Assembly (NCBI GenBank): GCA_014379965.1
Contig: JACMKU010000138.1
Coordinates: 1 to 64,000, forward strand
Length of the DNA: 64,000 nt
From: Chitinophagaceae bacterium
GTDB lineage: Bacteria; Bacteroidota; Bacteroidia; Chitinophagales; Chitinophagaceae
Reading direction: 5' to 3'
Shown here: one piece after another, positions 6,242-53,665 of the stretch
Layout of the letters: each line of letters begins with the position of its first letter
How positions within the stretch are numbered: the first letter of the stretch is position 1
Position numbers and translations under genes: made by a program
The notes under the pieces: generated by a model
Databases searched by the model: none
Told to the model about the DNA's origin: nothing
Seen by the model: only the letters and a program-made list of their open reading frames with translations

Positions 6242-7228
6242 ATGATGAAGAAATATTTCTGGCTTTGTTGCCTATTGTTCTCCCTTCGATCCCTCGCCCA
6301 GGACACAACGATGAATCAACTCACGAAGGAGATGGACACACCCGCATCGGAAGCGAAGGAGCCCGTCAAGATCTTCAATTCTTCGAGGGCGATCAATGCC
6401 AATACAACGGAGATGACCGGAAGAGGTAAGATGGACTTCCGCGTAACACACAATTTTGATGATATAGATGGTAAAGGGGGTGTATTTGGTCGCTTCCTGG
6501 GATTGGACAACGCCAAGGATGTGAGGATTGCGTTCGTAGTAGGAGTATCCAGACGCCTCGACCTTCATGCTTCCCGGGTACGTGGAGCAGGAGCAGTGAA
6601 CAAGATGTATGAATTAGGTTTTAAGTATCTGCTGGCACAGCAACGTGAGAATGATCCTTCGCATCCTTTGTCGATTGCTCTGTTTGCCAATACCGTCATC
6701 GCCACTGCCAAAGCTTCTTCGCTTCCTGGTTTTGAAGCCAGCTTCGAAGAACTTTCCGACAGGATGAGCCAGGCGGTTCAGCTGATCATTGCCCGCAAGT
6801 TTGGGAAAATCAGCCTGCAACTAAATCCAACCTGGGTACATACAAACTATGTGATACAGAATGATGATAATGGAATTTTCGCACTCGGAGGTGCGATAAG
6901 ATTTCCGATCACACGCAGCCTAAATATCATTGTCGACTACTTCCATCCTTTCAGATCGAAATCAAGCAAAGAGTTCTTCAAGACGGTAGACAATACCTAT
7001 GGCCCACCCGGAGATATTAGTTTCAACCCTGTCCCTATTACGTTTTATGATCCCCTCGGTATCAGCTTTGAGATTCTTACGGCGGGACACGTATTCAATT
7101 TGAACTTTACCAACGCTACCGAGATACTCGAGAATCGATTTATTCCACGGACCGTTAGCTCGTGGACGAAGGGAAAGTTTAGGTGGGGATTTACGATTTC
7201 GAGGAAGTTTGGTTTGTGGCGGAATTAA
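6242..7228 (+). CDS. DUF5777 family outer-membrane beta-barrel protein
   Basis: A 328-residue protein with a signal peptide (residues 1-19, ending RSLAQ) and alternating beta strands ending in an aromatic C-terminus (GFTISRKFGLWRN), as expected of an outer-membrane barrel. The IFNSSRAINANTTEMTGRGK segment followed by HNFDDIDGKGG..FGLD-type strands matches DUF5777 of Bacteroidota, a family without known function. A second Met at codon 2 (6245) is an equally good start. Its stop is directly followed by the hexad palindrome at 7232-7380, shared with the converging birA. Confidence 0.78.
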   Translation: MMKKYFWLCCLLFSLRSLAQDTTMNQLTKEMDTPASEAKEPVKIFNSSRAINANTTEMTGRGKMDFRVTHNFDDIDGKGGVFGRFLGLDNAKDVRIAFVVGVSRRLDLHASRVRGAGAVNKMYELGFKYLLAQQRENDPSHPLSIALFANTVIATAKASSLPGFEASFEELSDRMSQAVQLIIARKFGKISLQLNPTWVHTNYVIQNDDNGIFALGGAIRFPITRSLNIIVDYFHPFRSKSSKEFFKTVDNTYGPPGDISFNPVPITFYDPLGISFEILTAGHVFNLNFTNATEILENRFIPRTVSSWTKGKFRWGFTISRKFGLWRN

Positions 7229-7231
7229 CCC

Positions 7232-7380
7232 CCCTCGCTCTCGCTCTGTTTCTCGCTCTGTATCTGCTCCTGTTTCTCTTTCTGTTACTCTCAATCCAAG
7301 AGCGAGAAACAGAGCGAGAGCGAGGGGGAGGAACAGGAACAGAAACAGAAACAGAGCGAGAAACAGAGCGAGAGCGAGGG
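7232..7380. repeat. Hexad array forming a 29-bp perfect inverted repeat
   Basis: Words of 6 nt (CTCGCT, CTGTTT on the left; GAGCGA, GAAACA, GGAACA on the right) run in register across the region. The left arm 7232-7260 is the exact reverse complement of 7352-7380 (29 bp), and a further copy of most of that arm lies at 7300-7327. It occupies the whole gap between two converging genes and could act as a strong bidirectional hairpin. A similar hexad array lies at 21512-21682. Confidence 0.95.
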
Positions 7381-7383
7381 CCG

Positions 7384-8154
7384 TTAATCGATCAACCATG
7401 TTACCTCCCCAAACCCAAACTCCTCCACCACCGCATGCTCAACAACCAGCCTACCCTCTGGAGTTACTCCGCGAATAGTAGCCTCAAATACGCGGCTATC
7501 TTTTTTAAGTTTTACTTTCTCGTCTTTCTTATAAAGCCTCGATAGGTAGGACGAGAGAACGGAATCGAAGCCCGTCGATTGTAGTTCATCGAATTTTCGA
7601 ATCACGAGCCCACCCAATTGCCTCGCAAGATCCACGGGCTTGTACTCTTCCCCAGTTATTTGTTTAAGCGATACTGGGTGGGAAAGTTCGGGTGGAAAAC
7701 TAGTCTGGTTGATGTTAATACCCACACCCACCACTGCCCATCGCCACGGCGAATCCTCAGTTTGCCCAGCTTGGTCCCCATTGTTTGAGCCCACAATATT
7801 CTCGATCAGTATTCCTCCTGCCTTTCTGTCCCGCCAATAGAGGTCATTTGGCCACTTGATTCGGGTCTCCGTACCGGCATATTTTGTAAAAAATTCGTAC
7901 ACAGCAAGGGCGGCACAGACGCTAAGTTGGAATTGTTCCGAGACTTGAAGGGGAAATGGCCTCAAAATGATACTGATTGCGATGTTTTCTCCCTTGATGG
8001 AAGCCCAGTCCTTACCCCTTTGTCCCTTTCCTGCCGTTTGCTCATGGGAGAAGACGGCCATACCGTGTTGTGCCAAACCTTCACGTATATGTGTCAGGGC
8101 ATAATTATTGGTACTGTCAATCGATTGCAGCTCAATAAACGGCATGTCCGGCAT
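7384..8154 (-). CDS. birA: Biotin--[acetyl-CoA-carboxylase] ligase
   Basis: Biotin protein ligase of about 256 residues, attaching biotin to the carboxyl-carrier lysine of acetyl-CoA carboxylase through biotinyl-AMP. Seen: the N-terminal substrate signature SIDSTNNYAL, the biotin-binding loop TAGKGQRGKDW, RIKWPNDLYW with the catalytic Lys, GGILIE and VGVGININ, then a small C-terminal SH3-like domain. There is no N-terminal DNA-binding domain, so it is an enzyme only. Start is uncertain: ATG at 8154 is preferred, with ATG 8145 and TTG 8178 possible. Placed divergently from rsfS-ftsH, as often in Bacteroidota. Confidence 0.93.
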   Translation of the reverse strand: MPDMPFIELQSIDSTNNYALTHIREGLAQHGMAVFSHEQTAGKGQRGKDWASIKGENIAISIILRPFPLQVSEQFQLSVCAALAVYEFFTKYAGTETRIKWPNDLYWRDRKAGGILIENIVGSNNGDQAGQTEDSPWRWAVVGVGININQTSFPPELSHPVSLKQITGEEYKPVDLARQLGGLVIRKFDELQSTGFDSVLSSYLSRLYKKDEKVKLKKDSRVFEATIRGVTPEGRLVVEHAVVEEFGFGEVTWLID

Positions 8155-10859: not shown

Positions 10860-10937
10860 GGAATCGGGAATCAGGGATTGGGAATGAGTGATCGAATTAA
10901 AGAACGTTAAACCCTTAAACCTTTAAACGTTAAACTT
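10860..10937. repeat. Heptad array: GGAATCG-type then TTAAACG-type words
   Basis: Four 7-nt words of the GGAATCG type (10860-10887) are followed, after a 15-nt gap, by five in-register words of the TTAAACG type (10903-10937). The latter match the terminal repeats of the 148-bp elements at 42059-42206 and 53499-53646, but only one arm is present. The array ends 5 nt before the ATG of the LUD gene. Confidence 0.9.
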
Positions 10938-20216: not shown

Positions 20217-20305
20217 CAATAGGCAATAGGCAAATGCCAATAGGCAAAGGGTTGTTCAACTGCAAAGTGGCTTTTGCCTATTGCCTATTGCATATTGCAT
20301 ATTGG
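20217..20305. repeat. Heptad array as a 5+5 inverted pair (CAATAGG / CTATTGC)
   Basis: Five 7-nt words (CAATAGG, CAATAGG, CAAATGC, CAATAGG, CAAAGGG) at 20217-20251, a 19-nt spacer, then five complementary words (CTTTTGC, CTATTGC, CTATTGC, ATATTGC, ATATTGG) at 20271-20305. The arms would form an imperfect stem of about 35 bp. It lies between the small ORF and the promoter of the PDZ gene. Confidence 0.93.
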
Positions 20306-21511: not shown

Positions 21512-21682
21512 CTCTCTTCCTCGCTCCCGCTCCCGCTCTGTTCCTGTTTCTGTTTCTCTCCCTCGCTCCCGCTCTGTTTCTCGCTCTCAGGTTAGAGAAA
21601 CAGGAACAGAAACAGAAACAGGAACAGAAAACAGAAAACAGAAACAGAAAACAGGAACAGAAACAGAAACAGAAAACAGGAA
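21512..21682. repeat. Hexad array (CGCTCC/GTTTCT then AACAGA/AACAGG)
   Basis: Six-nt words rich in C and T (CGCTCC, CGCTCT, GTTTCT) fill 21512-21590; complementary purine-rich words (AACAGA, AACAGG, with occasional AAACAGA) fill 21597-21682. The two halves are broadly reverse complementary. Related in words and structure to 7232-7380. It lies after the PDZ terminator and ends 11 nt before the gatB -7 box. Confidence 0.93.
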
Positions 21683-38846: not shown

Positions 38847-41159
38847 GTGAGATACTTCCTTTCCGTCATATCCCTTTTAGTTCTTATTAATGCCGTTGCC
38901 CAGCAACCCCCTCAACCCATCGGTTTGTGGAGAGAACATCTTCCTTATCACAGCGCGATTGATGTGACCAGGGGTGATGGAAAGGTATTCGCGGCCACTC
39001 CATATAGCCTTTTCTCTGTAACCCTTGATGGTGCTACCATCGAGAGGCTAAGCCGTATTACAGGATTGAGCGAAACCGGGATCAGCAATATAGAATATGA
39101 CGAGCCCAATGAGAAACTGGTTATCGCATACGAGAATAGCAACATCGATATCATCTTTAGAAACGACATCATCAACATACCCGACATTCGACGTGATGAC
39201 ATCATCGGCGATAAGAGGATTTATGAAATTTATCCTTACCAGAAGAATTATTACCTATCTACAGGCCTCGGAGTGATCGTTATCGATGGCGAGCGTTATG
39301 AAATAAAAGACACCTGGTTTATCGGCGATGGCGGTGCCCAGGTAAGGGTAAACGGTTTCACTACAGATGCAGGTTTTTTCTATGCTGCAACAACCGAGGG
39401 TCTAAAGAGAACGCCAATAAACGGGTCCGAGCCTTCGAATTTCTCCAACTGGCAATTAATGAGTGGACTCAACGGCCTGAGTGCAGGTGCCTGTCAACAG
39501 GTATTGAATGTCTCAGGTAAGATAGTTGTGCAGAAGAATGACTCATTGTTTAGTTGGAACGGTAGTATATGGACGTTTTTCTATGCAGATGGTTGGGAGA
39601 TCATCAACAGTAGCGTGTCTGAGGGAAAGGTAACGCTAACTCAACGCATCGCCAGTTTGCAAAGCAAAGTGACGATTCTCAATAGTGATGGAAGTGTTTC
39701 CAGGGTATTGACCCAGTTAGCGCCAATCTCGTTTCCCCGAAAAGCCATTCTTGTCAATAACGAACCATGGCTGTCGGATCAATTTGGAGGGCTTACACAT
39801 TTCCTTACCTCGTCGTATGAACAATACAAGCCAAATTCGCCCGAGGGAACCGCAAGTGGTGAGATGATCGTATACAATAATGTTTTCTATGCTACGGCCG
39901 GGGAGGTGAATGAGTCGTGGAATTATATGTACAACGGTAACGGCATCTTTAAACTTAAGGATGGTACCTGGACTAATATAAACCGATATCGCTTTCCACA
40001 GATTGACTCACTACTCGATTACATTACGATTGCCCTCGATCCCCGGGATGAATCTATCTGGGCAGGATCATACGGTGGGGGTTTGTTGCACGTGAGGGAA
40101 AACGAGACGTTCAATATATTTAAACAACAAGTCTTAGGCGCGGCGGTTGGCGACCCGGGAAGTTATCGTGTCTCGGGCCTCGCGTTCGATAGTGAGAATA
40201 ATCTTTGGATATCCAATTTCGGCGCATTGCAGCCTTTGCTCGTACGAAAGGCTGATAGTACATGGATGCGGTTCACTCTTCCATTTTTTCTATTGGAGAA
40301 TTCGCTGGCGCAAATCGTGATCGACGATAATAATTATAAATGGATCATGGCTGCGAAATCGAGTAACGTCTTTGCCTTCGATCATGGTTCTTCAATAGAA
40401 AATATTGGGGATGACAGGTGGAAACAATATGCACCCGGTGCGGGCAATGGAAACCTTCCCGAAGGGGAAGTGCTATCTATCGCTCGTGATAAGAATGGTT
40501 TCATCTGGGTAGGAACAGCCAACGGGATCGGAGTGATTCAATGTCCACAGGATGCCTTCTCGGGCCAGGGATGCGACGCCATCTGGCCAATTGTGAAGCA
40601 GGGAAACTTCAACGGTTACTTATTTAATGGAGAAGAGGTGAGAAGTATCGCTGTCGACGGGGCCGACAGGAAATGGGTGGCGACGCGTAACGGCGTGTGG
40701 TTGATAAGTCCGGAAGGCGAGAACGTCATTTCCAATTTTACTGAGGCAAACAGCCCGCTATTGAGCAATGATGTCAGGAAGATCGCCATTGATGGTCGCA
40801 CCGGTGAAGTTTATTTTGCTACGTCGAAGGGTATCTGTTCATTTCGGGGAACGGCAACTGAAGGAGGTGAAACAAATGAAAGCGTACTAGTCTTCCCCAA
40901 CCCTGTGCCACCAGGCTATACGGGGTCGATTGGTATTCGTGGATTAGTCAACAATGCGATTGTGAAGATTACAGAAATGGATGGGCGTCTCGTTTATCAA
41001 ACAAGGGCGAACGGAGGGCAGGCAGTGTGGGATGGACGTGATTATAGAGCCAGGAAGATCGCGTCAGGCGTGTATCTCGTTCTTGTAAGCGATGACGGCT
41101 CTGCGGCAAGACCAAAGAAGGAAAAGGCTGCGGCGAAGATTGTCTTTATTAGCAAGTAG
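38847..41159 (+). CDS. porZ: Type IX secretion system protein PorZ
   Basis: A 770-residue exported protein with two seven-blade-type propeller regions (ligand-binding two-component-regulator-like repeats such as NKLWISNFG, GFIWVGTANGIGV, RKWVATRNGVWL), followed by a C-terminal Ig-like sorting domain (VLVFPNPVPPGYTGSIGIRG to KIVFISK) of the type A class. This is the build of PorZ, the surface component that works with the PorU attachment complex in the type IX system. Signal peptide ends AVAQ. Start GTG 38847 (no ATG in frame). recO follows at 41303; porZ and recO are neighbours in several Bacteroidota. Confidence 0.9.
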   Translation: MRYFLSVISLLVLINAVAQQPPQPIGLWREHLPYHSAIDVTRGDGKVFAATPYSLFSVTLDGATIERLSRITGLSETGISNIEYDEPNEKLVIAYENSNIDIIFRNDIINIPDIRRDDIIGDKRIYEIYPYQKNYYLSTGLGVIVIDGERYEIKDTWFIGDGGAQVRVNGFTTDAGFFYAATTEGLKRTPINGSEPSNFSNWQLMSGLNGLSAGACQQVLNVSGKIVVQKNDSLFSWNGSIWTFFYADGWEIINSSVSEGKVTLTQRIASLQSKVTILNSDGSVSRVLTQLAPISFPRKAILVNNEPWLSDQFGGLTHFLTSSYEQYKPNSPEGTASGEMIVYNNVFYATAGEVNESWNYMYNGNGIFKLKDGTWTNINRYRFPQIDSLLDYITIALDPRDESIWAGSYGGGLLHVRENETFNIFKQQVLGAAVGDPGSYRVSGLAFDSENNLWISNFGALQPLLVRKADSTWMRFTLPFFLLENSLAQIVIDDNNYKWIMAAKSSNVFAFDHGSSIENIGDDRWKQYAPGAGNGNLPEGEVLSIARDKNGFIWVGTANGIGVIQCPQDAFSGQGCDAIWPIVKQGNFNGYLFNGEEVRSIAVDGADRKWVATRNGVWLISPEGENVISNFTEANSPLLSNDVRKIAIDGRTGEVYFATSKGICSFRGTATEGGETNESVLVFPNPVPPGYTGSIGIRGLVNNAIVKITEMDGRLVYQTRANGGQAVWDGRDYRARKIASGVYLVLVSDDGSAARPKKEKAAAKIVFISK

Positions 41160-41172
41160 CTGGGTTTCTTGG

Positions 41173-41285
41173 TTGATTGGGTTGATTAAGTTGATTGGGT
41201 TGATTGAGGAGAGGCCAAACTAGGTAGCCCTAATCAACTCAATCAACCCAATCAACTTAATCAACCCAATCAACTTAATCAATCA
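41173..41285. repeat. Nonad array as an inverted pair (TTGATTGGG / AATCAACCC)
   Basis: Four 9-nt words (TTGATTGGG, TTGATTAAG, TTGATTGGG, TTGATTGAG) at 41173-41208, a 23-nt spacer, and five complementary words (AATCAACTC, AATCAACCC, AATCAACTT, AATCAACCC, AATCAACTT) at 41232-41276 with a partial sixth. It forms a long stem between porZ and recO. The same words recur at 52332-52425. Confidence 0.95.
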
Positions 41286-41302
41286 AGAAACAAAACAATT
41301 CA

Positions 41303-42049
41303 TTGCCAGATAAGCTACATAAAACCAAGGGTATTGTTTTGAGGACTGTCAAGTATGGTGAGACGAGTTTGATCGTCACCATCTTCACTGAGTTATTTGG
41401 CGTGCAGGCGTACCTCGTCAATGGAGTGAGGGCTTCTACAAAGAAAGGTGCTGGCAAGGCCAACCTTTTTCAACCATCCGCCTTGCTGGAGATGGTAGTT
41501 TACCATAGCGAACTGAAACAGCTGCAGCGAATCAAGGAATTCAGGTGGGGCTTCCTGTACCAACACATTTTAACCGATGTAAGGAAGAACGCGGTAGCGG
41601 TGTACATGGTTGAGCTACTGACAAAATGCATCCGGCAACCAGAACCTCATCCTGAGCTTTTTCAATTTGCGGAAGATGCATTCATGCACCTCGACGAGAG
41701 CAATGCCATGATTGCAGCTAACCTTCCTTTATATTTCGCACTACATCTTCCCGTCTTTTTTGGATTCCGGATGCAAGACAACTTCTCATCCTCGAGGACA
41801 TTTCTCGATCTCCAGGAAGGCAGCTTTGCAACTGACAATCCTTCCCACCTGCACTATCTCGAAGGCAAGCAGGCGGAGGTCACGTCTCAACTCCTGAAGG
41901 CTCAACGACCGGCCGAACTCGAGCAGATAAAGCTTCATCACGATTTTCGCAGAGGTCTCCTTGCAGCATATGAGACTTACTATGCGTTGCATTTACAGGA
42001 CTTTGGTAAGATGAGGACGCTGCCTGTGTTGAGAGAGATTCTCGGTTGA
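41303..42049 (+). CDS. recO: DNA repair protein RecO
   Basis: A 248-residue RecO, which with RecR loads RecA onto SSB-coated single-stranded DNA. Seen: the N-terminal OB-fold KTKGIVLRTVKYGETSLIVTIFTELFGVQAYLVNGVR, typical of the family, and an all-helical remainder in which the usual zinc-cysteine cluster of some RecOs is not present (true of Bacteroidota members). Start is TTG at 41303; no ATG precedes the conserved part. It lies 17 nt downstream of the nonad repeat and converges with the cytochrome c gene. Confidence 0.93.
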   Translation: MPDKLHKTKGIVLRTVKYGETSLIVTIFTELFGVQAYLVNGVRASTKKGAGKANLFQPSALLEMVVYHSELKQLQRIKEFRWGFLYQHILTDVRKNAVAVYMVELLTKCIRQPEPHPELFQFAEDAFMHLDESNAMIAANLPLYFALHLPVFFGFRMQDNFSSSRTFLDLQEGSFATDNPSHLHYLEGKQAEVTSQLLKAQRPAELEQIKLHHDFRRGLLAAYETYYALHLQDFGKMRTLPVLREILG

Positions 42050-42058
42050 TGTGGGAGG

Positions 42059-42206
42059 CGTTTAACGTTTAAGGGTTTAACGTTTAACGTTCTGATTTTC
42101 GATCTTGCAATAGAGAGTTGAAATGTTCCTTGAACCGTAATGGTCGAATACATACCTCAACTTCAGTCGTAAGAACGTTAAACGTTAAACCCTTAAACGT
42201 TAAACG
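42059..42206. repeat. 148-bp element with 35-bp perfect terminal inverted repeats, copy 1
   Basis: The left arm 42059-42093 (words CGTTTAACGTTTAAGGG and so on) is the exact reverse complement of 42172-42206. The 78-nt interior is clearly related, in opposite orientation, to the interior of the copy at 53499-53646 (shared blocks ATCTTGCA, TTGAA, CAACTTC). It fills all but 9 nt of the gap between recO and the converging cytochrome c gene. Confidence 0.97.
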
Positions 42207-42563
42207 TCATTTCACCTTTCTTATTCGCAGGAAAGTAATAACGTAGTCAATCTGTTCACTACTCATCTTCTTCGCCACCGCATGATTCTTGGGGTCGAGG
42301 CCAATGAGGGCTGTCGCGTGGTAGTTATCGATTTGGATGCTTGTAAAATTCGGCACACCGTCCTTTCCTTTAGTGAATATCCCATGACAACCCCCGCAAT
42401 GAATTTTATACAATGCCTTTCCTTTCTCCGCTCTTTCGATGAACAGGGCTTTATTTTCCGGAGGTACATGATCTGGAATGTCGTAAGCTGAACTTTTCTG
42501 TGGAGTGCATTGCCACAAGGCATAGGTAGCGACAAGAAGCGATATGGTAAGGAGATATTTCAT
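42207..42563 (-). CDS. Small exported cytochrome c
   Basis: A 118-residue protein with an N-terminal hydrophobic signal or anchor (residues 1-19) and one class-I-type haem c domain. The haem-binding motif is CGGCH (56-60) and the likely distal Met is in KKMSSEQ near the C-terminus. It probably passes electrons to the di-haem peroxidase encoded just upstream; its ATG starts 1 nt after that gene's stop, so expression is coupled. Cys19 could be a lipid attachment site, but the sequence before it (YALWQC) is a poor lipobox. Confidence 0.88.
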   Translation of the reverse strand: MKYLLTISLLVATYALWQCTPQKSSAYDIPDHVPPENKALFIERAEKGKALYKIHCGGCHGIFTKGKDGVPNFTSIQIDNYHATALIGLDPKNHAVAKKMSSEQIDYVITFLRIRKVK

Positions 42564-42564
42564 T

Positions 42565-44481
42565 CTAATATTCTCCTCCAATCCTTCGTGAATTCAGGGA
42601 TTTATTGCCTGATGCTGGCAGCCCGGTAGGAGGAGTATCAAAAATAATATTTTCATTTAAGGAACGCATGAATGCAATTAAGGATGCTTTCTCCGACTTT
42701 GTAAGCTTCAATGAATCGGAAGCCAGGGTCTGGTTGCCAATCGCAAGCCTTCTCCCTACGCCACCGCCGGCATCATAAAGGTCAACGACCTCTTCCAGCG
42801 TCTGGAAGATACCATTGTGCATGTAGGGTTTCGTGAACGACGCGTTCCTTATAGTACCCGTGCGAAAAGCATTCATAGTTTCTCCCGCAGGATTGATAAG
42901 ATACCTGCCCTTATCGGGACTCAACTTATGGAAGCCTGTATCTTCCGGCACGCCGAGTACTTCGAACTCGGAGCCAATATATGGCGGCTTCACCCCATTG
43001 AACACAGGAAGAAAATGACAGGTGCCGCATTGCGCCTTACTCATAAAAAGGTTGAACCCTTTCTTTACCTCGGCCGAGATAGTCTCCTTATTGTTCATCG
43101 CATTGTCGAAAGGTGCCGTGTATTGGCTGAAGTCCGCATAGTAGAAGGTAATGGCAGAGACAACATGACTCAGGCTTACTTTTTTCTCTTCCGGTGTATG
43201 CTTTAGAAATTTCTTGAACGCATTTTTATATTCCTTACAACTAAGCACCTTCTCCAATAGTTCCTTCTCGGAATTATTCATTTCCGCAGTGTTATGCATT
43301 ACATCTTTCGCCTGGTCCTGGAGTGAAATATGTTTTCCGTCGAGCATGATCAGGTGGTTGTACACTACATTGATTAGCGAGGGGGTATTCCTCGAAAGTC
43401 GTTGTTGATGATCAAACTGGAATGCCGTTGCCTGTGTGGTATCGGTAAAGTATTCGGTAGGCTTATGACACGAGGCGCAACTTCTACGATTATTGGCAGA
43501 CAGGATGGGGTCATAAAAAAGGAGTTTGCCCATTCTTTTTACTTCGCTCAGCATTTCTTCGTCCTCTATCAGGGAGTAGATGCCCTTTGTATTTTGTGGT
43601 GCATACAACGATTTATCGAATATCGACATGCAATCGTTGTTCAACGAGTAGTCGTTATAATTTTTTGTGACCACTGAATACTTGTTGATCAGCTCCTGGT
43701 TCATGCGAAAGAGGGGATTCACATAATCTTTGACGAAAAGAAAATGATCGAAGAGTGAAAACTCGGTTGGCTGCGCATTGACGAATGAAATGGTCTTTCG
43801 GAACATCTCATGGTATTCCTTTGTTAAAGGCGTAGCATTAAAACTCGCATCGAATGTTTGGTAAGTCTGATTCACATCAATCATCATTGAGCGTAGCTCA
43901 GGAATGATATTATTCGTATCAGGGCATTCGAAACCGGTAGTATATAATGCAGCCAGGTTCAGGAGGAATAACCTGTTGGCGAGGAAGAAATGGTTATGAG
44001 AGGCTAAGTTCACCGTGATGGAGTCAGCCCTGAAAGTCCTGATGGCATCTATGGAAGGAAGCAGGAGTGCTTCGAGCGATTCACGCGTTACAGTTTTTTC
44101 GTCGAGGGCCTGTTCTATTAGGGTTAGGCCACCACCCTCGCGCCGATAGGGAGGTTCGAATTTTTCAAATACCTCGTTTTCCCACTCCACCGGCAGCGGT
44201 CCATTTATCCTGCGATACGCTACGGGTTCGAAATAACGAAACCAGAAATCGAGGCCTTTTAGTTTCAACCGAGATACCCCGATCTGTTTCCGGAGGAGTG
44301 AAACTGCGGAGGTATCGGTAAGATCCGTTTGCTTTATTGATAGAAGGAGCGACTTCAGGTCACCGTCGAATTCATTGACCGACTGGTTGTATAAATCAGT
44401 GTAACCCTTCTTCTGTTGCAGATTGAATGAGAAGCAGAACGTCATTATGACAATAGCAGCTATGACAGAAAGAATTTTCAT
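42565..44481 (-). CDS. Di-haem cytochrome c peroxidase family protein with long N-terminal extension
   Basis: A 638-residue exported protein with a signal peptide and about 310 residues of mostly helical N-terminal domain (imelysin-like in feel, not certain), then the CcpA/MauG-type di-haem peroxidase module (about 315-630). The two haem motifs are RRSCASCHKP (near 335) and QCGTCHFLP (near 485), with TGTIRNASFTKPYMHNGIF near the C-terminus, a signature of the family. It reduces hydrogen peroxide in the periplasm using electrons from cytochrome c, here likely the small one encoded next. The N-terminal half is far longer than in normal ~350-residue peroxidases. Confidence 0.9.
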   Translation of the reverse strand: MKILSVIAAIVIMTFCFSFNLQQKKGYTDLYNQSVNEFDGDLKSLLLSIKQTDLTDTSAVSLLRKQIGVSRLKLKGLDFWFRYFEPVAYRRINGPLPVEWENEVFEKFEPPYRREGGGLTLIEQALDEKTVTRESLEALLLPSIDAIRTFRADSITVNLASHNHFFLANRLFLLNLAALYTTGFECPDTNNIIPELRSMMIDVNQTYQTFDASFNATPLTKEYHEMFRKTISFVNAQPTEFSLFDHFLFVKDYVNPLFRMNQELINKYSVVTKNYNDYSLNNDCMSIFDKSLYAPQNTKGIYSLIEDEEMLSEVKRMGKLLFYDPILSANNRRSCASCHKPTEYFTDTTQATAFQFDHQQRLSRNTPSLINVVYNHLIMLDGKHISLQDQAKDVMHNTAEMNNSEKELLEKVLSCKEYKNAFKKFLKHTPEEKKVSLSHVVSAITFYYADFSQYTAPFDNAMNNKETISAEVKKGFNLFMSKAQCGTCHFLPVFNGVKPPYIGSEFEVLGVPEDTGFHKLSPDKGRYLINPAGETMNAFRTGTIRNASFTKPYMHNGIFQTLEEVVDLYDAGGGVGRRLAIGNQTLASDSLKLTKSEKASLIAFMRSLNENIIFDTPPTGLPASGNKSLNSRRIGGEY

Positions 44482-44487
44482 GGGTGG

Positions 44488-45648
44488 TCAGAGGAGCCGG
44501 GAAAGTTTGGATAGTTCGTGGTCGAAAAGAATGACTCCTGGTCGTTTTCCTGTTTCAAAACTACCTAATAACTTATCCATTTGCAAGGCTTTTGCCCCGT
44601 TGCTCGTGGCCCAAAGCAATAATTGATCGATGGCAATTGCGGGATACGCATCCCGTATCATCTGTAACTCGGCAAGTATGCTCAGATGATGGTTGGACGC
44701 CAGGCTATCGGTTCCAAGAACGGTGACACATTCATTCTTCATAAATCGATCTACAGCAGGCAATTGACCACTGATAAACCGGTTGGCCCCCGGACAAAGG
44801 CACCAGGTCAGCGGGATTCCGGATGCCTTCGCAAAAGCCAGGTCATCCTCGCTGGTCTCCACATTGTGGGTGAGAATCAGGGATTGATTTTTAAGAAAAT
44901 TTTGCAGATAGCTCTGCAGGCTTGACTTGCCGGTTGAGATGAAATGGGAGACGTCGACTCCCATCGTCTTATAAAATTCCACGAAGTCTCCGGTCTTGTG
45001 CCGGGACCATTCATTTTCGGCCGCCGATTCCTGGTTGTGAATAGTAAGAAGGTGGTTGCCGGGAAACGATACGATCTTTTTCAGCAGCTCATCGGTAATT
45101 GAATAAGGAGCATGTGGTACCAGCGAAATGGATTCGATGGGAATACTATATAACTGGGCAAAGGCCGAGAAGAGTTCAACACCGCCCTTAAATCTCTTTT
45201 CGGCCACCTCGGGCACAGCTCCAGCCAGTTCGATGAAATTATGGTACCATAGACGACCTTTCGATTTTTGCACCAGCGTCATCGGCGTATTGCAGATATC
45301 ACCCACGGCAACGATTCCATTTGCGATCATTTCATCCTCTGCTTTTTCTATCGCTTGCATCATCACTTCACGACTTTGCGCACGCTGTGTCATTACTTGC
45401 GTGAGAAAGGTGACGAGGCCGGTGCCTTCGGGGATGAGGCCCTTAAGGTGACTCAATTCGAGATGGCAATGGCAGTTGATTAAACCCGGGGAGAGAATGC
45501 CCGGGAGTTTTTGAATGTCGTCGCCCGCTTCTGTTGCGATAATGATTTCTTCGATGGTCCCATCTTCTTTTGTAATTAAAACAACTGATTCATCGAGGAA
45601 GCGATAGCCATCAAATATCCGGTCTGCCTTGAATTTCTTATAAGCCAT
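44488..45648 (-). CDS. Metal-dependent amidohydrolase (aminofutalosine/SAH-deaminase-like)
   Basis: A 386-residue amidohydrolase-superfamily enzyme. Metal motifs in order: INCHCHLELSHL near residue 57 (H-x-H), VPHAPYS with His, LTIHNQESAAENE (His and Glu), LTHNVETSEDD, and GTDSLASNHHLS with the catalytic Asp. This belongs to the TrzN/MtaD-like cytosolic deaminases, acting on amino-purine or related nucleosides; aminofutalosine deaminase is a possibility but no other menaquinone gene is near. It is the first gene of a tight leftward operon (6 nt to the peroxidase), a surprising combination with haem proteins. Confidence 0.82.
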   Translation of the reverse strand: MAYKKFKADRIFDGYRFLDESVVLITKEDGTIEEIIIATEAGDDIQKLPGILSPGLINCHCHLELSHLKGLIPEGTGLVTFLTQVMTQRAQSREVMMQAIEKAEDEMIANGIVAVGDICNTPMTLVQKSKGRLWYHNFIELAGAVPEVAEKRFKGGVELFSAFAQLYSIPIESISLVPHAPYSITDELLKKIVSFPGNHLLTIHNQESAAENEWSRHKTGDFVEFYKTMGVDVSHFISTGKSSLQSYLQNFLKNQSLILTHNVETSEDDLAFAKASGIPLTWCLCPGANRFISGQLPAVDRFMKNECVTVLGTDSLASNHHLSILAELQMIRDAYPAIAIDQLLLWATSNGAKALQMDKLLGSFETGKRPGVILFDHELSKLSRLL

Positions 45649-45670
45649 GGTTGTAAAATTCGGGAATAAC

Positions 45671-45749
45671 GGTGAGTAGTGAGTGGTGAGTAGTCAATGG
45701 CCGACCTAAGTTCGCTATTGCCAATTGCCAATTGTCTATTGTTTCCCGC
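45671..45749. repeat. Heptad arrays (RGTGAGT x4; CTATTGC-type x5)
   Basis: Four words GGTGAGT, AGTGAGT, GGTGAGT, AGTCAAT at 45671-45698 and, after 16 nt, CTATTGC, CAATTGC, CAATTGT, CTATTGT, TTCCCGC at 45715-45749. Both stay in the 7-nt register, but here the two halves are not complementary. Located in the divergent region between the amidohydrolase and prfA. Confidence 0.9.
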
Positions 45750-45776
45750 TCTTTCCACATACTCGCTTCAAATCAG

Positions 45777-45784
45777 TAAATTTG
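45777..45784 (+). promoter_or_regulatory. TAnnTTTG -7 box upstream of prfA
   Basis: TAAATTTG is a perfect -7 match, ending 19 nt before the prfA ATG; TTTC near 45752-45755 lies about 21 nt upstream as a weak -33 element. This gives a short leader of around 14 nt. Confidence 0.55.
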
Positions 45785-45803
45785 CTGCCCTGAGAAAGAG
45801 TAT

Positions 45804-46868
45804 ATGTTAAACAAACTGGAAGCAATTAAAGCAAGGTTCGATCAACTGGGTGTGGCGCTTACAAATCCTGAGATTGTGGGAAACAATAAGCGTTTTGCCG
45901 AGACGAGCAGGGAGTACAGGAGCCTGGAGAAAATAGTGACGGCTTACACGGAATACATGAAGGTCCTCGACGATATAGAATTCTATAAAGAGGCGCTAAA
46001 TGGAACGGATGAAGAGATGCGTGAGCTTGCCAAGACGGAATCTCCTGGAGTGGAAGAGAAAAAGACGCGTCTCGAGTCTTACATCAGGCAATTGTTGATA
46101 CCAAAGGATCCTCAGGATGAAAAAAATGCCATCCTTGAAATACGCGCTGGTACGGGTGGAGACGAAGCGAGCCTTTTTGCCGGCGACCTGTTGAGAATGT
46201 ATATCCGCTATTGCGAGAGGCGAGGGTGGAAGACCGCCATATTAAGTGAGAACGAGGGAACGGTTGGAGGATACAAGGAAGTGCAATTGGAGGTCACGGG
46301 CGATGACGTATACGGGGTATTAAAGTTTGAAAGCGGTGTTCATCGTGTCCAACGCGTACCCGATACGGAGGCCAGTGGCAGGGTGCATACTTCAGCGGCC
46401 ACCATCGCGGTGATGCCCGAAGCTGAAGAAGTGGATTTTGAACTGAATCCTGCAGATGTAAAGATGGAGACTGCAAGAAGTGGCGGCGCTGGAGGCCAGA
46501 ATGTAAATAAGGTAGAGACGAAAGTGATGCTCACCCACATTCCCACAGGAACAGTAGTGATATGCCAGACGGAAAGGTCACAGTTGGGCAACAGGGAGAA
46601 GGCGATGCAGATGCTGCGTACCCGGTTGTACGAGGAGCAGGTAAGAAAACAGGAAGATGAAATTTCCCGCCATAGAAAAAGTCTTGTAAGTACGGGGGAC
46701 AGGAGCGCAAAGATCCGCACATATAATTTCCCCCAGGGAAGGGTTACCGATCACCGGATCGGGCTTACACTCTACAATCTTCAAAACGTGTTGAACGGCG
46801 ATATTGACGAACTCCTCGAGGCGCTGCAATTTGCCGAGAATTCGGAAAAGCTTGCAAAGCAGAATTAG
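45804..46868 (+). CDS. prfA: Peptide chain release factor 1
   Basis: RF1 of 354 residues, reading UAA and UAG stops and triggering release of the finished protein. The stop-codon recognition tripeptide P186-D187-T188 ([17 protein letters not shown]) marks it as RF1 rather than RF2, and the catalytic GGQ (230-232, [11 protein letters not shown]) is intact. The N-terminal helical domain is of usual length and no programmed frameshift site is seen. Transcribed alone, divergent from the amidohydrolase operon. Confidence 0.98.
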
Positions 46869-46873
46869 CTAGG

Positions 46874-46987
46874 GGTTGCCTGGTTGCTCGTTTCTTGGGT
46901 CCTAAGGCCGCTCAGGTTTATCGTGATACGAGTTCAATATTCTAAGCAACCAGGTAACAAGGCAACCAAGCTACAGGCAACCAAGCG
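46874..46987. repeat. Heptad-like array of GGTTGCC / GCAACCA words, inverted
   Basis: Words GGTTGCC, TGGTTGC, TCGTTTC, TTGGGTC at 46874-46901 and their reverse complements GCAACCA, GGTAACA, AGGCAAC, CAAGCTA, CAGGCAA, CCAAGCG at 46946-46987. It lies just after the prfA stop and can fold into a long hairpin that may end prfA transcription. Confidence 0.85.
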
Positions 46988-47061
46988 TAAACCCTTACCC
47001 AGTCCTTGCCAGGTAATCGTTCTGTCACAATTGTCTCCACTGAATTTTTTTGGTCTGATTT

Positions 47062-47184
47062 ATGCAATATTATCGGTACCTACATCGTATTGTAGTAGTT
47101 AGTTCTTTCTCATTAGTGGTCATTGTTAACATCTGGATCTTGCTGAAGAAGAGAATGATATATTGGTGTTCTTTTGGGAAATAA
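47062..47184 (+). CDS. Putative 40-residue single-helix membrane protein
   Basis: ATG-started ORF beginning MQYYRYLHR, then one strongly hydrophobic helix (IVVVSSFSLVVIVNIWILL, residues 10-28) and a basic end (KKRMIYWCSFGK). Layout is the same as the 43-residue ORF at 19975-20106: one helix with Lys/Arg at its edge. It is in the otherwise empty 499-bp gap between prfA and vanZ. No consensus promoter or ribosome site precedes it. Function unknown; chance occurrence is possible because the DNA here is AT-rich. Confidence 0.35.
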   Translation: MQYYRYLHRIVVVSSFSLVVIVNIWILLKKRMIYWCSFGK

Positions 47185-47271
47185 AATCCACAAAAAAACG
47201 GGTTTACCAGAGAAGAAATACAGATTTTGGCTTTAGATTTTCGTTAACAACACAAAGAGCACTAATGGCAG

Positions 47272-47279
47272 TAAATTTG
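47272..47279 (+). promoter_or_regulatory. TAnnTTTG -7 box of a candidate small RNA
   Basis: TAAATTTG is a perfect -7 box with no protein gene behind it; the only downstream signals are two hairpins, the second a terminator. No clear -33 TTG at 19-21 nt. Confidence 0.5.
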
Positions 47280-47284
47280 CGTTA

Positions 47285-47377
47285 TACTTTTATAGTTCTT
47301 CTTATAAAAGCAGTCAATTTTCTCATAAGCAGTTAGTTTTGGTTGCGACCCCTGTTTCTACAGGGGTCTATTTTTTT
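47285..47377 (+). ncRNA. Candidate ~93-nt small RNA
   Basis: Starts about 6 nt after the perfect -7 box at 47272-47279, continues through an 8-bp perfect hairpin (CTTTTATA / TATAAAAG, 47287-47310), and ends in a classic terminator: 9-bp stem GACCCCTGT / ACAGGGGTC (47347-47368), loop TTCT, then TATTTTTTT. The nearest + strand gene ends 417 nt upstream, so the terminator is not simply that of prfA. Its last 10 nt overlap the 3' end of the leftward vanZ. I do not recognise a known RNA family. Expression is unproven. Confidence 0.5.
47347..47377 (+). terminator. Rho-independent terminator (+ strand only)
   Basis: A 9-bp perfect stem with a TTCT loop, and T-rich tail on the + strand only; on the minus strand the tail is A/C-rich, so it does not serve vanZ. 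Ends the candidate small RNA. Confidence 0.88.
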
Positions 47378-47793
47378 ATATACCTGCGTGTACTGAAAAT
47401 CACCCCCAAGGCGCATCCTACAGCGTCGGTTATAATATCCGCTATTTCGAATGAGCGATGGTTTGTAAACTTCATTTGTACAAATTCCATGATGATCCCG
47501 TAGACTAGTCCTATTATCCCGGTAATAATAAATGCTCGCTTTAACCCCTTTGCATCGAGACCTGGTTGAAATGCTCTCCAGGTTAGACAACCAAGCAATA
47601 CCAGCACGGCAAACATGCCTATGTGAACCCATTTGTCCAGCCATATCTTGTCGAACCAGTTTTCCTGGGGAAAGTCATCCGAAGGGAGTGTGAGTAGAAT
47701 GATCGAGATGATCAACCAGCTAATAGTGGCAGCCAGGTAGAGAAACTTTCGCAATTTTTTTTTGCAATGATAGTGGGAAAAATGTAAGGTCAC
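47368..47793 (-). CDS. VanZ family membrane protein
   Basis: A protein of about 141 residues with four transmembrane helices (about 17-38, 55-78, 88-108, 118-134) and the family signature DKWVHIGMFAVLVLLGCL, plus GLVYGIIMEFVQMKF and DIITDAVGCALGVIF. VanZ proteins were named for teicoplanin resistance but most have no known function; this does not imply antibiotic resistance. The start is uncertain: GTG at 47793 is preferred, since a TTG at 47817 would fall inside a terminator hairpin. In Bacteroidota, vanZ-like genes are often near gcvH, and here two genes lie in between. Confidence 0.85.
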   Translation of the reverse strand: MTLHFSHYHCKKKLRKFLYLAATISWLIISIILLTLPSDDFPQENWFDKIWLDKWVHIGMFAVLVLLGCLTWRAFQPGLDAKGLKRAFIITGIIGLVYGIIMEFVQMKFTNHRSFEIADIITDAVGCALGVIFSTRRYIKK

Positions 47794-47804
47794 TACATAA
47801 AACA

Positions 47805-47833
47805 ACAGAAGCCCCAAAAGAGGCCTCTGTTTT
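47805..47833. terminator. Second terminator hairpin after the anti-sigma gene
   Basis: A 9-bp stem with one mismatch (ACAGAAGCC / GGCCTCTGT) and T-rich flanks on both strands. It lies just upstream of vanZ, so it separates vanZ from the sigma operon. Confidence 0.7.
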
Positions 47834-47850
47834 AACCAACTATAGAACCA

Positions 47851-47872
47851 AAAACTGCCTTTCAGCAGTTTT
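47851..47872. terminator. Terminator hairpin after the anti-sigma gene
   Basis: A perfect 8-bp stem (AAAACTGC / GCAGTTTT), loop CTTTCA, with T runs on both sides. First hairpin met by transcripts leaving the anti-sigma gene, 50 nt after its stop. Confidence 0.75.
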
Positions 47873-47921
47873 GTTTATTTACGGGATGCGATCGGAAATA
47901 GATTGGGAGTAGAAAAAATTT

Positions 47922-48701
47922 TTATAGCCGCGTCTTGCCATAGGTCTCGACTGGACCTCCGGGAACAGGACCGTTGCCCCTGTTTTCAATCGTAATGGCA
48001 AAGGCCTCGGCCTTTTGTGTGTTCTTCATCTTTAGGATCACTTTGTCCTCTTCTGCGTCGAAAAGGCCAAGGTCGACGGGCTTGCCGTCGATGAAGGCCC
48101 AAAGCTGGTATTGTTTCTCTGTCGGTAGTTTGGGCAGGTTCTTGACCACCAGGAAAACGTTAGTGGAGGCGGTGTCCCAATAAATGTTAGCCGATGAATT
48201 GGATGATGGCTGAGTGCCAACCATGCTCACTACCATCGCGGCTTTTGGATCCATCATCGATTCCTTCTGCTTTGCCAGGATCTGGTTGACCGAATCGACT
48301 TCCAATCTTAATTGGCTAAACGAATTCTTGAGTTCGCGGTTCTTGGAATATTGATCAAACGCGAACCATGCGGTTGCTAACAGTAGAAGTATGGATGCGG
48401 CAGCGACGAAACGAAGCCAGCCACGTCCATTACCCGATCTCTCGATGCGCACAACGGGTGCAACTTTGTCTTCAGCGCCAGGACGTACGGAACCTAGTAC
48501 TTCTTCCTTCAAATGAACAGGAGGAGCAATGGCTTGTTCGAAAGCCTGGTTCTCGAGTTTTAGTTCAAACTCATTCCGGGCAGCAACCAGTTCAGGATAT
48601 TGACGGCAGAGTTTTTCAAACTCAATCCGCTCCTGATCCGAGGCGAGGCCCAGTACATAGCTTTCGACTATTCCACTAGATATGTATTCCTTTATATTCA
48701 C
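47922..48701 (-). CDS. Anti-sigma factor, RskA-like
   Basis: A 259-residue single-pass membrane protein: a cytoplasmic N-terminal anti-sigma (zinc-less) helical domain (about 1-60, ESYVLGLASDQERIEFEKLC), one transmembrane helix (96-114), a coiled region and a periplasmic RskA-type domain (VFLVVKNLPKLPTEKQYQLWAFIDGKPVDLGLFD). This is the partner of the ECF sigma factor encoded directly upstream (1 nt gap). It holds the sigma factor until a signal, probably from the envelope or redox state, frees it. The signal cannot be told from sequence. Confidence 0.92.
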   Translation of the reverse strand: MNIKEYISSGIVESYVLGLASDQERIEFEKLCRQYPELVAARNEFELKLENQAFEQAIAPPVHLKEEVLGSVRPGAEDKVAPVVRIERSGNGRGWLRFVAAASILLLLATAWFAFDQYSKNRELKNSFSQLRLEVDSVNQILAKQKESMMDPKAAMVVSMVGTQPSSNSSANIYWDTASTNVFLVVKNLPKLPTEKQYQLWAFIDGKPVDLGLFDAEEDKVILKMKNTQKAEAFAITIENRGNGPVPGGPVETYGKTRL

Positions 48702-48702
48702 T

Positions 48703-49245
48703 TTACTGTATCAAAGTTCTTAATTGTATCAATGCACTCCGGATACGTGTTTTTACTGTACCCAGTGGTATGCTCATAGCTTTTGCAATCTCTTCATGGG
48801 TAAATCCCTGGAAGTAGGATAAGTCGATCAATACGCGCTGCTCCGCTTTTAGCTTGCCTATTACTTTTTTCAATCCCACATCTTGATAGGAGGGATTTAC
48901 AGAAGGTCCGACAGTTTTATCTACGTTTTCGGACAAGGGCTGGTTTTTCAAACTATCCCTAAAACCTTTCGATCGTATTTTGTCTATAGCTGCATTACGT
49001 GCTACGTTAAGCATCCATGTAAACAATCGTCCTTTCGATGGATCGTAAGATTCTATCTTCTTCCATATATTGACAAACACATCCTGCATAACATCGTTTG
49101 CTGTCTCAGTATCCGTAATAATGGAATGAATGATACCGTACAATGCGCCCGAGTAATTATCATACAAATAGCTAAATGCTTTGTCACTGCGTTGTTGTAA
49201 TGCGGCGACAAGTTCACTTTCACTATATGCTTCGCGTGGGTTCAA
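48703..49245 (-). CDS. ECF sigma-70 factor (SigK-like)
   Basis: An RNA polymerase sigma factor of about 180 residues: region 2 (about 20-92; FSYLYDNYSGALYGIIHSIITDTETANDVMQDVFVNIWKKI), then region 4 (about 120-175; GFTHEEIAKAMSIPLGTVKTRIRSALIQLR). It is of the SigK/RpoE-like group often paired with RskA-type anti-sigma factors, and that gene follows 1 nt later. Start is TTG at 49245; no ATG is in frame before region 2. The motif TAGTATTTG directly overlapping this start is like a -7 box with 3-nt spacing. Targets unknown; probable envelope stress response. Confidence 0.92.
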   Translation of the reverse strand: MNPREAYSESELVAALQQRSDKAFSYLYDNYSGALYGIIHSIITDTETANDVMQDVFVNIWKKIESYDPSKGRLFTWMLNVARNAAIDKIRSKGFRDSLKNQPLSENVDKTVGPSVNPSYQDVGLKKVIGKLKAEQRVLIDLSYFQGFTHEEIAKAMSIPLGTVKTRIRSALIQLRTLIQ

Positions 49246-49289
49246 ATACTAGCCATTGATTTTGCGATGAGAAACTTATCCATTGTCAT

Positions 49290-49667
49290 CTAGCCCGCAA
49301 GTGCTTCGTAGGCGGCGGCATCAAGAAGAGATTTTACATCATCCGGATTATCTACAGTCATTTTAATCATCCATCCTTTTCCGTAAGGATCGGTATTTAT
49401 AAGCTCTGGAGCGTTGGCCAGGTCAGGATTAAGTTCTGTAATTGTGCCACTGATCGGCAAAAAAAGGTCGGAAACGGTTTTCACCGCCTCAACGGTACCG
49501 AAAATGGCGCCCGAGGCCAGCGGTTTCCCGATTGATTCGACCTCAACATATACGATATCTCCGAGTTCCCGCTGGGCGAAGTCGGTTATGCCGATTGTAG
49601 CGGTGTCTCCATCGAGGCTAATCCATTCATGCTCTTTAGTATAGCGAAGATTTTCGGGGAAATTCAT
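49290..49667 (-). CDS. gcvH: Glycine cleavage system H protein
   Basis: H protein of 125 residues, carrying the aminomethyl group between the P, T and L proteins on lipoyl-lysine. The lipoylation site is Lys63 in [15 protein letters not shown], and the standard N-terminal YTKEHEW and C-terminal GKGWMIKM segments are present. The frame is open upstream to 49766, but ATG at 49667 starts the family's conserved region. A near-perfect -7 box (CATATTTG) lies about 19 nt upstream on the minus strand. gcvP and gcvT are not in this window. Confidence 0.97.
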
Positions 49668-49820
49668 AACTGAATCATTTATAACGCAAATATGGGCAAA
49701 AGGATCAGACAAAGAGCCGGTGAGCTGAACTTTTTTGCAGTTCACCGGAAATTTCAGGCTGTTCATGCTAAACCTTATACCATTTGTCGGTTATCGCTTT
49801 ACAATTGTATGACAGTAGGG

Positions 49821-49828
49821 TATCTTTG
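49821..49828 (+). promoter_or_regulatory. TAnnTTTG -7 box of the outer-membrane receptor gene
   Basis: TATCTTTG is a perfect -7 box with TTTA 19 nt upstream (49798-49801). The expected start gives a leader of about 23 nt with AAAGAGGAAAG before the ATG at 49857, and supports that ATG over upstream in-frame codons. Confidence 0.6.
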
Positions 49829-49856
49829 TTGCACCTTATCAAAAAGAGGAAAGATT

Positions 49857-52322: not shown

Positions 52323-52331
52323 TCTGTTGAG

Positions 52332-52425
52332 TTGCATGAGTTGATTAAGTTGAATGGGTTGATTAAGTTGATTAGGGCTGGGATGGCCCAAACAACTTAA
52401 TCAACCCATTCAACCTAGTCAACTT
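52332..52425. repeat. Nonad array as an inverted pair, overlapping a gene's 3' end
   Basis: Five 9-nt words (TTGCATGAG, TTGATTAAG, TTGAATGGG, TTGATTAAG, TTGATTAGG) at 52332-52376, a 14-nt loop, and complementary words (AACAACTT, AATCAACCC, ATTCAACCT, AGTCAACTT) at 52391-52425. The right arm runs 7 nt into the cyclophilin gene, so the array supplies its last codons. Same words as 41173-41285. Confidence 0.93.
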
Positions 52426-53117: not shown

Positions 53118-53135
53118 TAGAAATAGATGTGGTGG

Positions 53136-53480: not shown

Positions 53481-53484
53481 CGGG

Positions 53485-53492
53485 CAAAGATA
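53485..53492 (-). promoter_or_regulatory. TAnnTTTG -7 box, 4 nt before the start at 53480
   Basis: Minus strand TATCTTTG, perfect consensus, with CCCG between it and the ATG, implying a leaderless transcript. The DNA upstream is the terminal repeat of the 148-bp element. Confidence 0.55.
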
Positions 53493-53498
53493 GCATCT

Positions 53499-53646
53499 GG
53501 CGTTTAACGTTTAAGGGTTTAACGTTTAACGTTCTTACCATCGAAGTTGCGGTTGTAATTGTGCATCCCGATTCAGGAAATTCAATTCTTAGATGCAAGA
53601 TCCACAATCAGAACGTTAAACGTTAAACCCTTAAACGTTAAACGCC
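53499..53646. repeat. 148-bp element with 37-bp perfect terminal inverted repeats, copy 2
   Basis: Left arm 53499-53535 and right arm 53610-53646 are exact reverse complements over 37 bp and carry the same words as the copy at 42059-42206. The 74-nt interior is related to that copy in opposite orientation. It sits exactly between two divergent genes, with one TATCTTTG box just outside each end. Confidence 0.97.
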
Positions 53647-53652
53647 AAGGGC

Positions 53653-53660
53653 TATCTTTG
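53653..53660 (+). promoter_or_regulatory. TAnnTTTG -7 box, 5 nt before the serS ATG
   Basis: TATCTTTG, perfect consensus, ends 5 nt before the ATG at 53666; a leaderless mRNA is expected. Upstream is the right terminal repeat of the 148-bp element. Confidence 0.55.
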
Positions 53661-53665
53661 CCGGC

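Follow-up and report, generated by a model that had tools for sequence, protein, structure and literature searches.

A palindrome between recO and a cytochrome c gene belongs to a nearly species-private family of inverted heptamer arrays

The palindrome between recO and cytochrome c and its relatives in the window

The DNA analysed (the window, 64,000 nucleotides) is part of contig C198 of a Chitinophagaceae assembly of 4.73 Mb in 221 contigs, which is 90.4% complete. Positions 42059-42206 form a palindrome of about 150 bases, and an earlier note on this DNA was correct that its two arms of 35 nt are exact reverse complements, with 78 nt between them. The arms themselves are degenerate tandem repeats of TTTAACG. 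As also claimed, the element occupies the whole gap between the convergent recO and cytochrome c genes: it starts 9 nt past the recO stop and abuts the cytochrome c stop. Both genes were confirmed with Pfam (RecO, PF11967 and PF02565; Cytochrom_C, PF00034). A neighbouring gene carries a PorZ propeller domain above the cut-off and a CHU_C type IX signal below it. The PorZ propeller, CHU_C and the motif TAnnTTTG are marks of Bacteroidota.

The homologue that had been placed at 53499-53646 is real and slightly longer than claimed, since its perfect arms of 38 nt extend it to 53498-53647. It sits between divergent genes, and a TAnnTTTG motif lies outside the element on each side. When one interior was reversed, the interiors of the two copies aligned with a score of 36 (maximum 20.5 in 3000 end-preserving shuffles), and their identity was 70% in the alignment of 18 copies described below, which bears out their proposed homology. 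The arm at 10903-10937, suspected of being a solo remnant, is indeed a decayed family member. In the register that was scored it differs from the arm core at 6 of 30 positions, and on its inner side it keeps a subterminal motif of the TTTAACG family (TTCTTTAATTCGAT), followed by an unrelated simple array. By eye, it is one of two elements cut or filled by another array, the other being C169:8993. The window contains 7 matches to the arm pattern, some of them overlapping, and 100 shuffled windows contain 0; palindromes of comparable score number 9 in the window and 0 in one dinucleotide-shuffled window.

Table 1. Palindromes and their parts in the window
Feature	Position	Strand	Description
Left arm, first copy	42059..42093	+	heptamer array CGTTTAACGTTTAAGGGTTTAACGTTTAACGTTCT
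Interior, first copy	42094..42171	.	78 nt; homologous in reverse to second-copy interior; subterminal TCGA inside
Right arm, first copy	42172..42206	-	exact reverse complement of left arm; abuts stop codon (42207) of minus-strand cytochrome c gene
Left arm, second copy	53498..53535	+	38 nt, perfect
Interior, second copy	53536..53609	.	orientation reversed versus first copy
Right arm, second copy	53610..53647	-	
Lone decayed arm	10903..10937	-	GATTCCC-type array in place of interior; by eye, TTAAACGAC is what is left of other arm
(GTTGATTNN)n palindrome, same build, other family	41172..41274	.	arms 37/37 perfect; 12 nt after stop codon
(GTTGATTNN)n palindrome	52339..52424	.	fills convergent gap
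(CTCGCTCTGTTT)n-armed palindrome	7224..7388	.	fills convergent gap
(CAATAGG)n-armed palindrome	20217..20290	.	
(CTGTTTCTGTTC)n-armed palindrome	21537..21628	.	

Copy number, host range and the search for a mobiliser

The note had named two outcomes that would refute it, interiors that fail to align and a genome without more copies, and neither occurred: the interiors align as described above, and further copies were found in number. The assembly contains 151 matches (72 + 79) to the arm core with at most 3 mismatches, and the reversed control gave 0. Of these places 100 were listed, and we read the surroundings of the exact matches among them and of some others, together with the window (297,533 bases in 72 blocks). 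This DNA held 162 arm-like hits, defined by up to 8 of 30 mismatches, which gave 64 pairs under a rule requiring facing polarity and left 34 hits unpaired. In a first pass accepting either polarity, 70 of 71 pairs were facing. Interiors of the 64 pairs range from 35 to 149 nt, and some single arms show a shortened or decayed partner by eye. In one place (C208:13838-14071), an arm and interior related to the copy C167:8023 are duplicated in tandem.

Outside this genome the arms are nearly absent. Six genomes of the same genus gave 0, 0, 0, 0, 1 and 2 matches, each of them weak (3 mismatches), and 1 weak match was found among 146 other genomes of the host's family. The genome_contigs collection, from which the own genome was possibly left out, gave 1 exact match, to a lone arm in a Bacteroidetes MAG. 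The TTTAACG palindrome family is nearly private to one species. A phage origin was rejected, as no exact arm match was found in viral contigs. In another genus (G084, L053:1501-1580), a short TTTAA-heptamer hairpin lies directly behind a stop codon, in a setting that resembles an operon of ribosomal proteins, the genes having been identified by eye only.

The junction between recO and cytochrome c was compared with five genomes of the same genus, a sixth (G147) being without a comparable locus. The gap is 157 nt here, and 8 nt in G148, 7 nt in G150, 89 nt in G086, 150 nt in G151 and 637 nt in G149. In these five relatives the best arm match at the junction had 14 to 17 of 30 mismatches, and no palindrome was scored.

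The family has the terminal inverted repeats and high copy number of a MITE and is too short for coding; it also has the two inverted conserved ends around a less conserved spacer of a REPIN. We infer mobility from the high copy number, the absence at the orthologous junction and the restriction to one species; with one genome per species, movement is not directly visible. The element at 42059-42206 is probably one copy of a species-specific, non-autonomous, REPIN/MITE-like family of mobile palindromes. An enzyme acting in trans, which reads the arms but not the interior, would spread the copies; the arms would stay fixed while the interiors drift because such an enzyme needs only the former. 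The insertions would be recent.

Copy number, terminal inverted repeats, host range and the lack of the element at that junction in the five comparable relatives support the MITE-like part of the earlier note. Target-site duplications, a check that the note had proposed, were not detected in 37 clean-armed pairs: taken over all k from 2 to 16, the direct match between flanks did not exceed that of shuffled flanks, with an isolated low value at k = 12 (15 of 500 shuffles reached the observed match). The inverted match showed a weak excess at k = 15 and 16 (0 of 500 shuffles), which may come partly from an outermost decayed heptamer and partly from symmetrical TAnnTTTG motifs at divergent sites.

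No autonomous partner was found in the parts of the genome covered here. The genome has three Y1_Tnp genes, and in their flanks of up to 1.5 kb the best arm match had 12-14 of 30 mismatches for all three; one side of L180 was shortened by a contig end, and in an assembly 90% complete a gene may have been missed. The arm consensus also has no GTAG or CGTC tag at the repeat foot. A RAYT/REPIN link was rejected, as no arm lies in the flanks read around the three Y1_Tnp genes. A retroelement origin was rejected as well, since RVT_1 matches do not track the palindromes across genomes: they were over the cut-off in G086, G150 and G000 (the last with a stop inside), below it in G151, and not found in G147, G148 and G149. 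Ten wider spacings of facing arms, with 444-3023 nt inside, were present in the DNA read. A Pfam scan of 8 of the ORFs between these facing arms, a selection without the one of 934 aa, found no transposase domain, 2 of the 8 having no hit at all; to this extent a composite transposon was also rejected. Separately, two of the Y1_Tnp (RAYT-like) genes (L181 and L182, on contigs C25 and C213) lie near GC-rich palindromes seen by eye, CTCCTGAGC...GCTCAGGAG and GGTTAG...CTAACC; these palindromes seem to be the REPs that belong to the two genes.

Constant arms, drifting interiors and the position behind stop codons

The earlier note had contrasted near-identical arms with drifted interiors, and the family agrees with this. 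In 18 copies aligned at full length, the arms were 96% identical on average and the interiors 50% (range 30 to 80%); the copies were taken from the 22 best-matching loci without L017, L018, L021 and L022, a selection biased towards homologous interiors. Of the pairs formed by 52 interiors of 60-110 nt, 8% exceeded the 99th percentile of the null, where about 2% were expected, each pair being taken in its better orientation against a one-orientation null. A loose consensus, TTCTTnAnnTCGAA, is common to both interior ends. At positions 3-12 of the inner ends, identity within an element was 0.378, lower than the 0.460 between different elements (40 elements; 1999 of 2000 shuffles were as high or higher), and at positions 12-32 there was no difference. 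Since an element's own two ends are less alike than the ends of different elements, the interior probably descended from one asymmetric sequence; a polar interior, with one TTCTGA-type and one TTCTTA-type end, would fit such a descent.

The note's second reading was a structured non-coding RNA whose stem is kept by compensatory change. The long stem is indeed predicted to be very stable (-75.2 kcal/mol, z -11.25). But the interiors alone gain no folding stability over their shuffles (mean z -0.14; of 40 interiors, 1 lies below -2), and the covariation check, run on the family, gave no compensatory change. Across 42 of the 64 elements, those with both arms at most 3 substitutions from the core (22 shifted, shortened or more changed ones were dropped), 34 arm substitutions were one-sided and 0 were shared by both arms, at an arm divergence of 1.35%. 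RNAalifold on the 18 copies gave 33 paired columns, 0 of them with a two-sided change, and Rfam at gathering thresholds gave no match in the window. Since the substitutions are one-sided and no pair has changed on both sides, the arms are young or recently homogenised rather than visibly conserved by pairing. In the close pair C154/C214 the arms of C214 carry 2 and 3 substitutions, so the constancy of the arms is not absolute. A structured RNA is thus very improbable, and of the two readings in the note the MITE-like one is favoured.

The arms could instead be an array of sites for a nucleoid or insulator DNA-binding protein, with the interior as a spacer. Constant arms, a free interior and a mostly intergenic position would suit this, as would the interior lengths, which in pairs with good arms peak at 86 nt (10 of 37 pairs) and again at 69-70 nt (7 pairs). 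However, it does not account for arms that are nearly species-private next to conserved genes, for the common build of unrelated arm families, or for the place of the elements at stop codons. We regard it as unlikely.

Position relative to genes was measured with a simple codon-usage gene caller, whose stops are reliable and whose starts are less so. Tandem genes flank 36 of the 64 elements, convergent genes 21 and divergent genes 6, and 1 lies at a contig end; any overlap with a called gene is 40 nt at most. A stop codon lies at most 20 nt away in 50 of the 64 elements. At stop-codon sides (n = 78) the median distance was 4 nt, with 59 sides within 15 nt and 9 stops inside the arm, and at start sides (n = 48) it was 53.5 nt, with 10 within 15 nt. 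In tandem gaps of at least 100 nt, 10 of 14 elements lay at most 20 nt from the upstream stop, where uniform placement would give 1.55, and 0 of 14 lay near the downstream start. The arms carry TAA every 7-8 nt, and an arm-heptamer TAA ends the gene in 8 cases. At the 67 sides within 30 nt, the stops were TAA 28, TGA 23 and TAG 16 times (119, 78 and 68 in all called genes); as this usage resembles that of all called genes, most nearby stops are the genes' own. TAnnTTTG occurs at 3 of the 22 start sides within 40 nt of an element and at 27 of 164 gene starts overall. Its lack was dropped as a sign of operons, since a motif equally rare at all gene starts does not tell an operon from a promoter.

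This position allows an alternative in which the palindromes are functional 3'-end modules, selected as terminators or transcript boundaries that replace intrinsic terminators in this lineage, with mobility secondary. Besides the hugging of stop codons, several comparisons fit it. Palindromes stand at 20 of 55 convergent boundaries and at 37 of 281 others (p = 0.00011; the 458-kb sample is described below). At the junction 52322-52419, a short hairpin followed by a T-rich tail can be seen by eye in five relatives out of six (G148, G150, G086, G147 and G151), G149 has a different palindrome, and this genome has a GTTGATT palindrome. Canonical terminators, counted with our own rule at gene ends with a gap of at least 40 nt and in small samples, were found at 4 of 29 ends in this genome and 6 of 46 in G149, and at 9 of 36 in G148, 13 of 32 in G150, 8 of 29 in G086, 3 of 15 in G151 and 3 of 13 in G147, that is 10 of 75 in the palindrome-bearing genomes versus 36 of 125 in the five other genomes of the genus (Fisher p = 0.015).

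Other results argue against such modules. The arms are AT-rich and no U-tract lies behind those of either window copy, so they do not qualify as intrinsic terminators; the 19 terminator-like sites found in 41000-54000 all lie outside the two elements. Arm mutations are uncompensated, and the 22 of 48 start sides within 40 nt leave little room for a promoter. Where a palindrome sits at 41160-41302 in this genome, between the PorZ-like gene and recO, two relatives have an operon-like gap of 2 nt. Three genomes of other genera gave terminator rates of 8/22, 3/15 and 3/12, and by this difference the rate varies without palindromes. Taken together, we hold 3'-end modules to be a possible but less favoured explanation.

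Under the preferred reading as mobile palindromes, copies just behind stop codons would be tolerated, since there they disturb neither reading frames nor promoters and merely add a long RNA hairpin to the 3' end, where it may perhaps be used. Such a hairpin may serve one or both of the flanking transcripts as a weak boundary or as a stabiliser. Either an insertion preference or selection may cause the stop-hugging. Against mobility stand the lack of target-site duplications and of an identified mobilising gene, the divergent or promoter-side copies (6 of 64 divergent), and the behaviour of other palindrome families, which in wide tandem gaps lay close to the stop about as often as expected (1 of 11 against 0.97).

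Other short-unit palindromes and known repeat systems

The observation of the element is right, and it is part of a larger pattern of palindrome families. We sampled 458 kb, made up of the window and 20 stretches that were not chosen for palindromes, on contigs among those with arm hits. This sample has 65 inverted repeats with a loop of at least 12 nt, 47 of them with short-unit tandem arms (about 10 per 100 kb). G149 has 18, 13 of them tandem-armed, in 412 kb that include some stretches picked for an arm hit; G148, G150, G086 and G151 have 0 in 226 kb, and 25 other genera of the host's family (30 loci, 566 kb) have 11, of which 4 are tandem-armed. An array search independent of palindromes found 90 arrays of 6-12-nt units, 83 of them intergenic. 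Within 180 nt, 48 of these 83 have an inverted partner, 4 a direct one and 31 neither, both members of a pair being counted; the control gave 7 and 6 of 391. In the same sample, 42 of 72 stop sides and 5 of 46 start sides lie within 20 nt.

The unrelated arm units span 7-12 nt, and the unit families are TTTAACG, GTTTAANN, TTGATTNNG, GTCCGAAA, GTGANTG, CGCAAAGA, GAATCGG, CAATAGG and CTGTTTCT. Arrays of GTGARTR type (GTGAATG-type) were found in 48 of 147 genomes and 41 of 100 genera sampled, which suggests that the phenomenon is wider than one species; the reversed control matches in some genomes, exceeding the pattern in G028, and what is seen is mostly the count rather than the build. Arms of CGCAAAGA type occur in 7 of 147 genomes. 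Palindromes with unrelated arms stand between the PorZ-like gene and recO both in the window (41160-41302) and in G149 (L213:4293-4387), which we read as independent occupation of the same gene boundary. Arrays of (CAATAGG)n type at 2694-2767, 16157-16197 and 45717-45742 have no inverted partner within 180 nt. A further group of palindromes, with a GTCATTGCGAGG-type arm and not built of short units, lies at 58332-58508 of the window, L220:8238-8933 and L234:15650-15808.

Loops were compared within families, some loops still including array units. The share of pairs above the 99th shuffle percentile was 0 for CGCAAAGA, 0.08 for GTGANTG, 0.14 for GTCCGAAA, 0.19 for both TTGATTNNG and TTTAACG, 0.21 for GTTTAANN, and 1.0 for CTGTTTCT (5 loops) and GAATCGG (4 loops). 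TTCGAA occurs in 13 loops of 63 non-TTTAA elements (1.6 in matched intergenic DNA, 2.5 in shuffles), and ATCGAA, ATTCGA and GTTCGA, which overlap it, are enriched in interiors of the TTTAACG family; the TTCGAA excess is only a lead, because it emerged from scanning all 5- and 6-mers and the word has no constant place in the loop. An arm's own partner was strictly its best match in 6/7 cases for CGCAAAGA, 8/14 for GTGANTG, 3/5 for CTGTTTCT, 2/3 for CAATAGG, 2/5 for GAATCGG, 2/9 for GTCCGAAA, 4/13 for GTTTAANN, 4/13 for TTGATTNNG, 4/73 for TTTAACG and 4/6 for unclassed arms. These counts do not show that arms are copied from each other, because score-based picking favours own partners. One process might build near-perfect inverted arms from arbitrary arrays of 7-12 nt at gene 3' ends, giving unrelated families with a shared architecture and a TTCGAA-rich core that displace intrinsic terminators as boundaries; we consider this rather doubtful.

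Correia, ERIC, RUP and BIME elements are short intergenic imperfect palindromes of high copy number, and by general description the TTTAACG palindromes resemble them in being short, intergenic and numerous. REPINs, described as REP doublets forming hairpins (PMC3116915), share more: inverted conserved ends, a less conserved spacer, high copy number, extragenic position, a predicted hairpin and a non-autonomous nature. Yet pairing within REPIN spacers, with frequent compensatory changes, has been reported (PMC3116915), whereas our interiors are unstructured and substitutions affect one arm only. Single REPs are also reported to be more decayed than paired ones. REP repeats carry GTAG/CGTC tags (PMC3733652), and our arms are AT-rich heptamer arrays lacking them; moreover, no Y1_Tnp gene has an arm nearby, and the position is tied to stop codons. 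We do not file the family as REPINs, because a defining REPIN feature was tested and not found. As a kind, the TTTAACG palindromes stand next to REPINs.

BrickBuilt, a MITE of Porphyromonas gingivalis, is likewise short and intergenic, with terminal inverted repeats, an internal tandem repeat and a limited host range. It differs in that the tandem repeat here forms the arms and not the middle, no target-site duplication was detected, and stop codons are hugged, whereas BrickBuilt is reported to lie 49-591 nt from genes (PMC4596501). No IS related to the TTTAACG palindromes was found in a non-exhaustive search. Direct repeats of the heptamer TAACTGA have been described in Beggiatoaceae, Cyanobacteria and five Bacteroidetes, with up to 169 sets in one genome and no mechanism known (PMC4679880). 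They too are intergenic arrays of a heptamer containing a stop codon, with a patchy phylogeny, but they are direct and mostly just upstream of starts, while TTTAACG arms are paired, inverted and mostly just downstream of stops. Bacterial intergenic stem-loops are reported to concentrate 3' of coding sequences, some of them in repeat families (PMC1590033). The palindromes share this placement and repeat-family membership, and differ in having 35-nt arms of short tandem units around a long free loop. None of the listed open-licence PMC matches describes these palindrome families in its title or the start of its abstract.

The best-described mobile palindromes of bacteria, REPINs, are tied to one enzyme. 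Here the palindromes fall into several arm families and often sit directly behind genes, and neither of the enzyme families sought, Y1_Tnp and RVT_1, was linked to them. Should the palindromes move, there is a mobiliser to be discovered; should they end or protect transcripts, this lineage would be swapping its gene-boundary signals.
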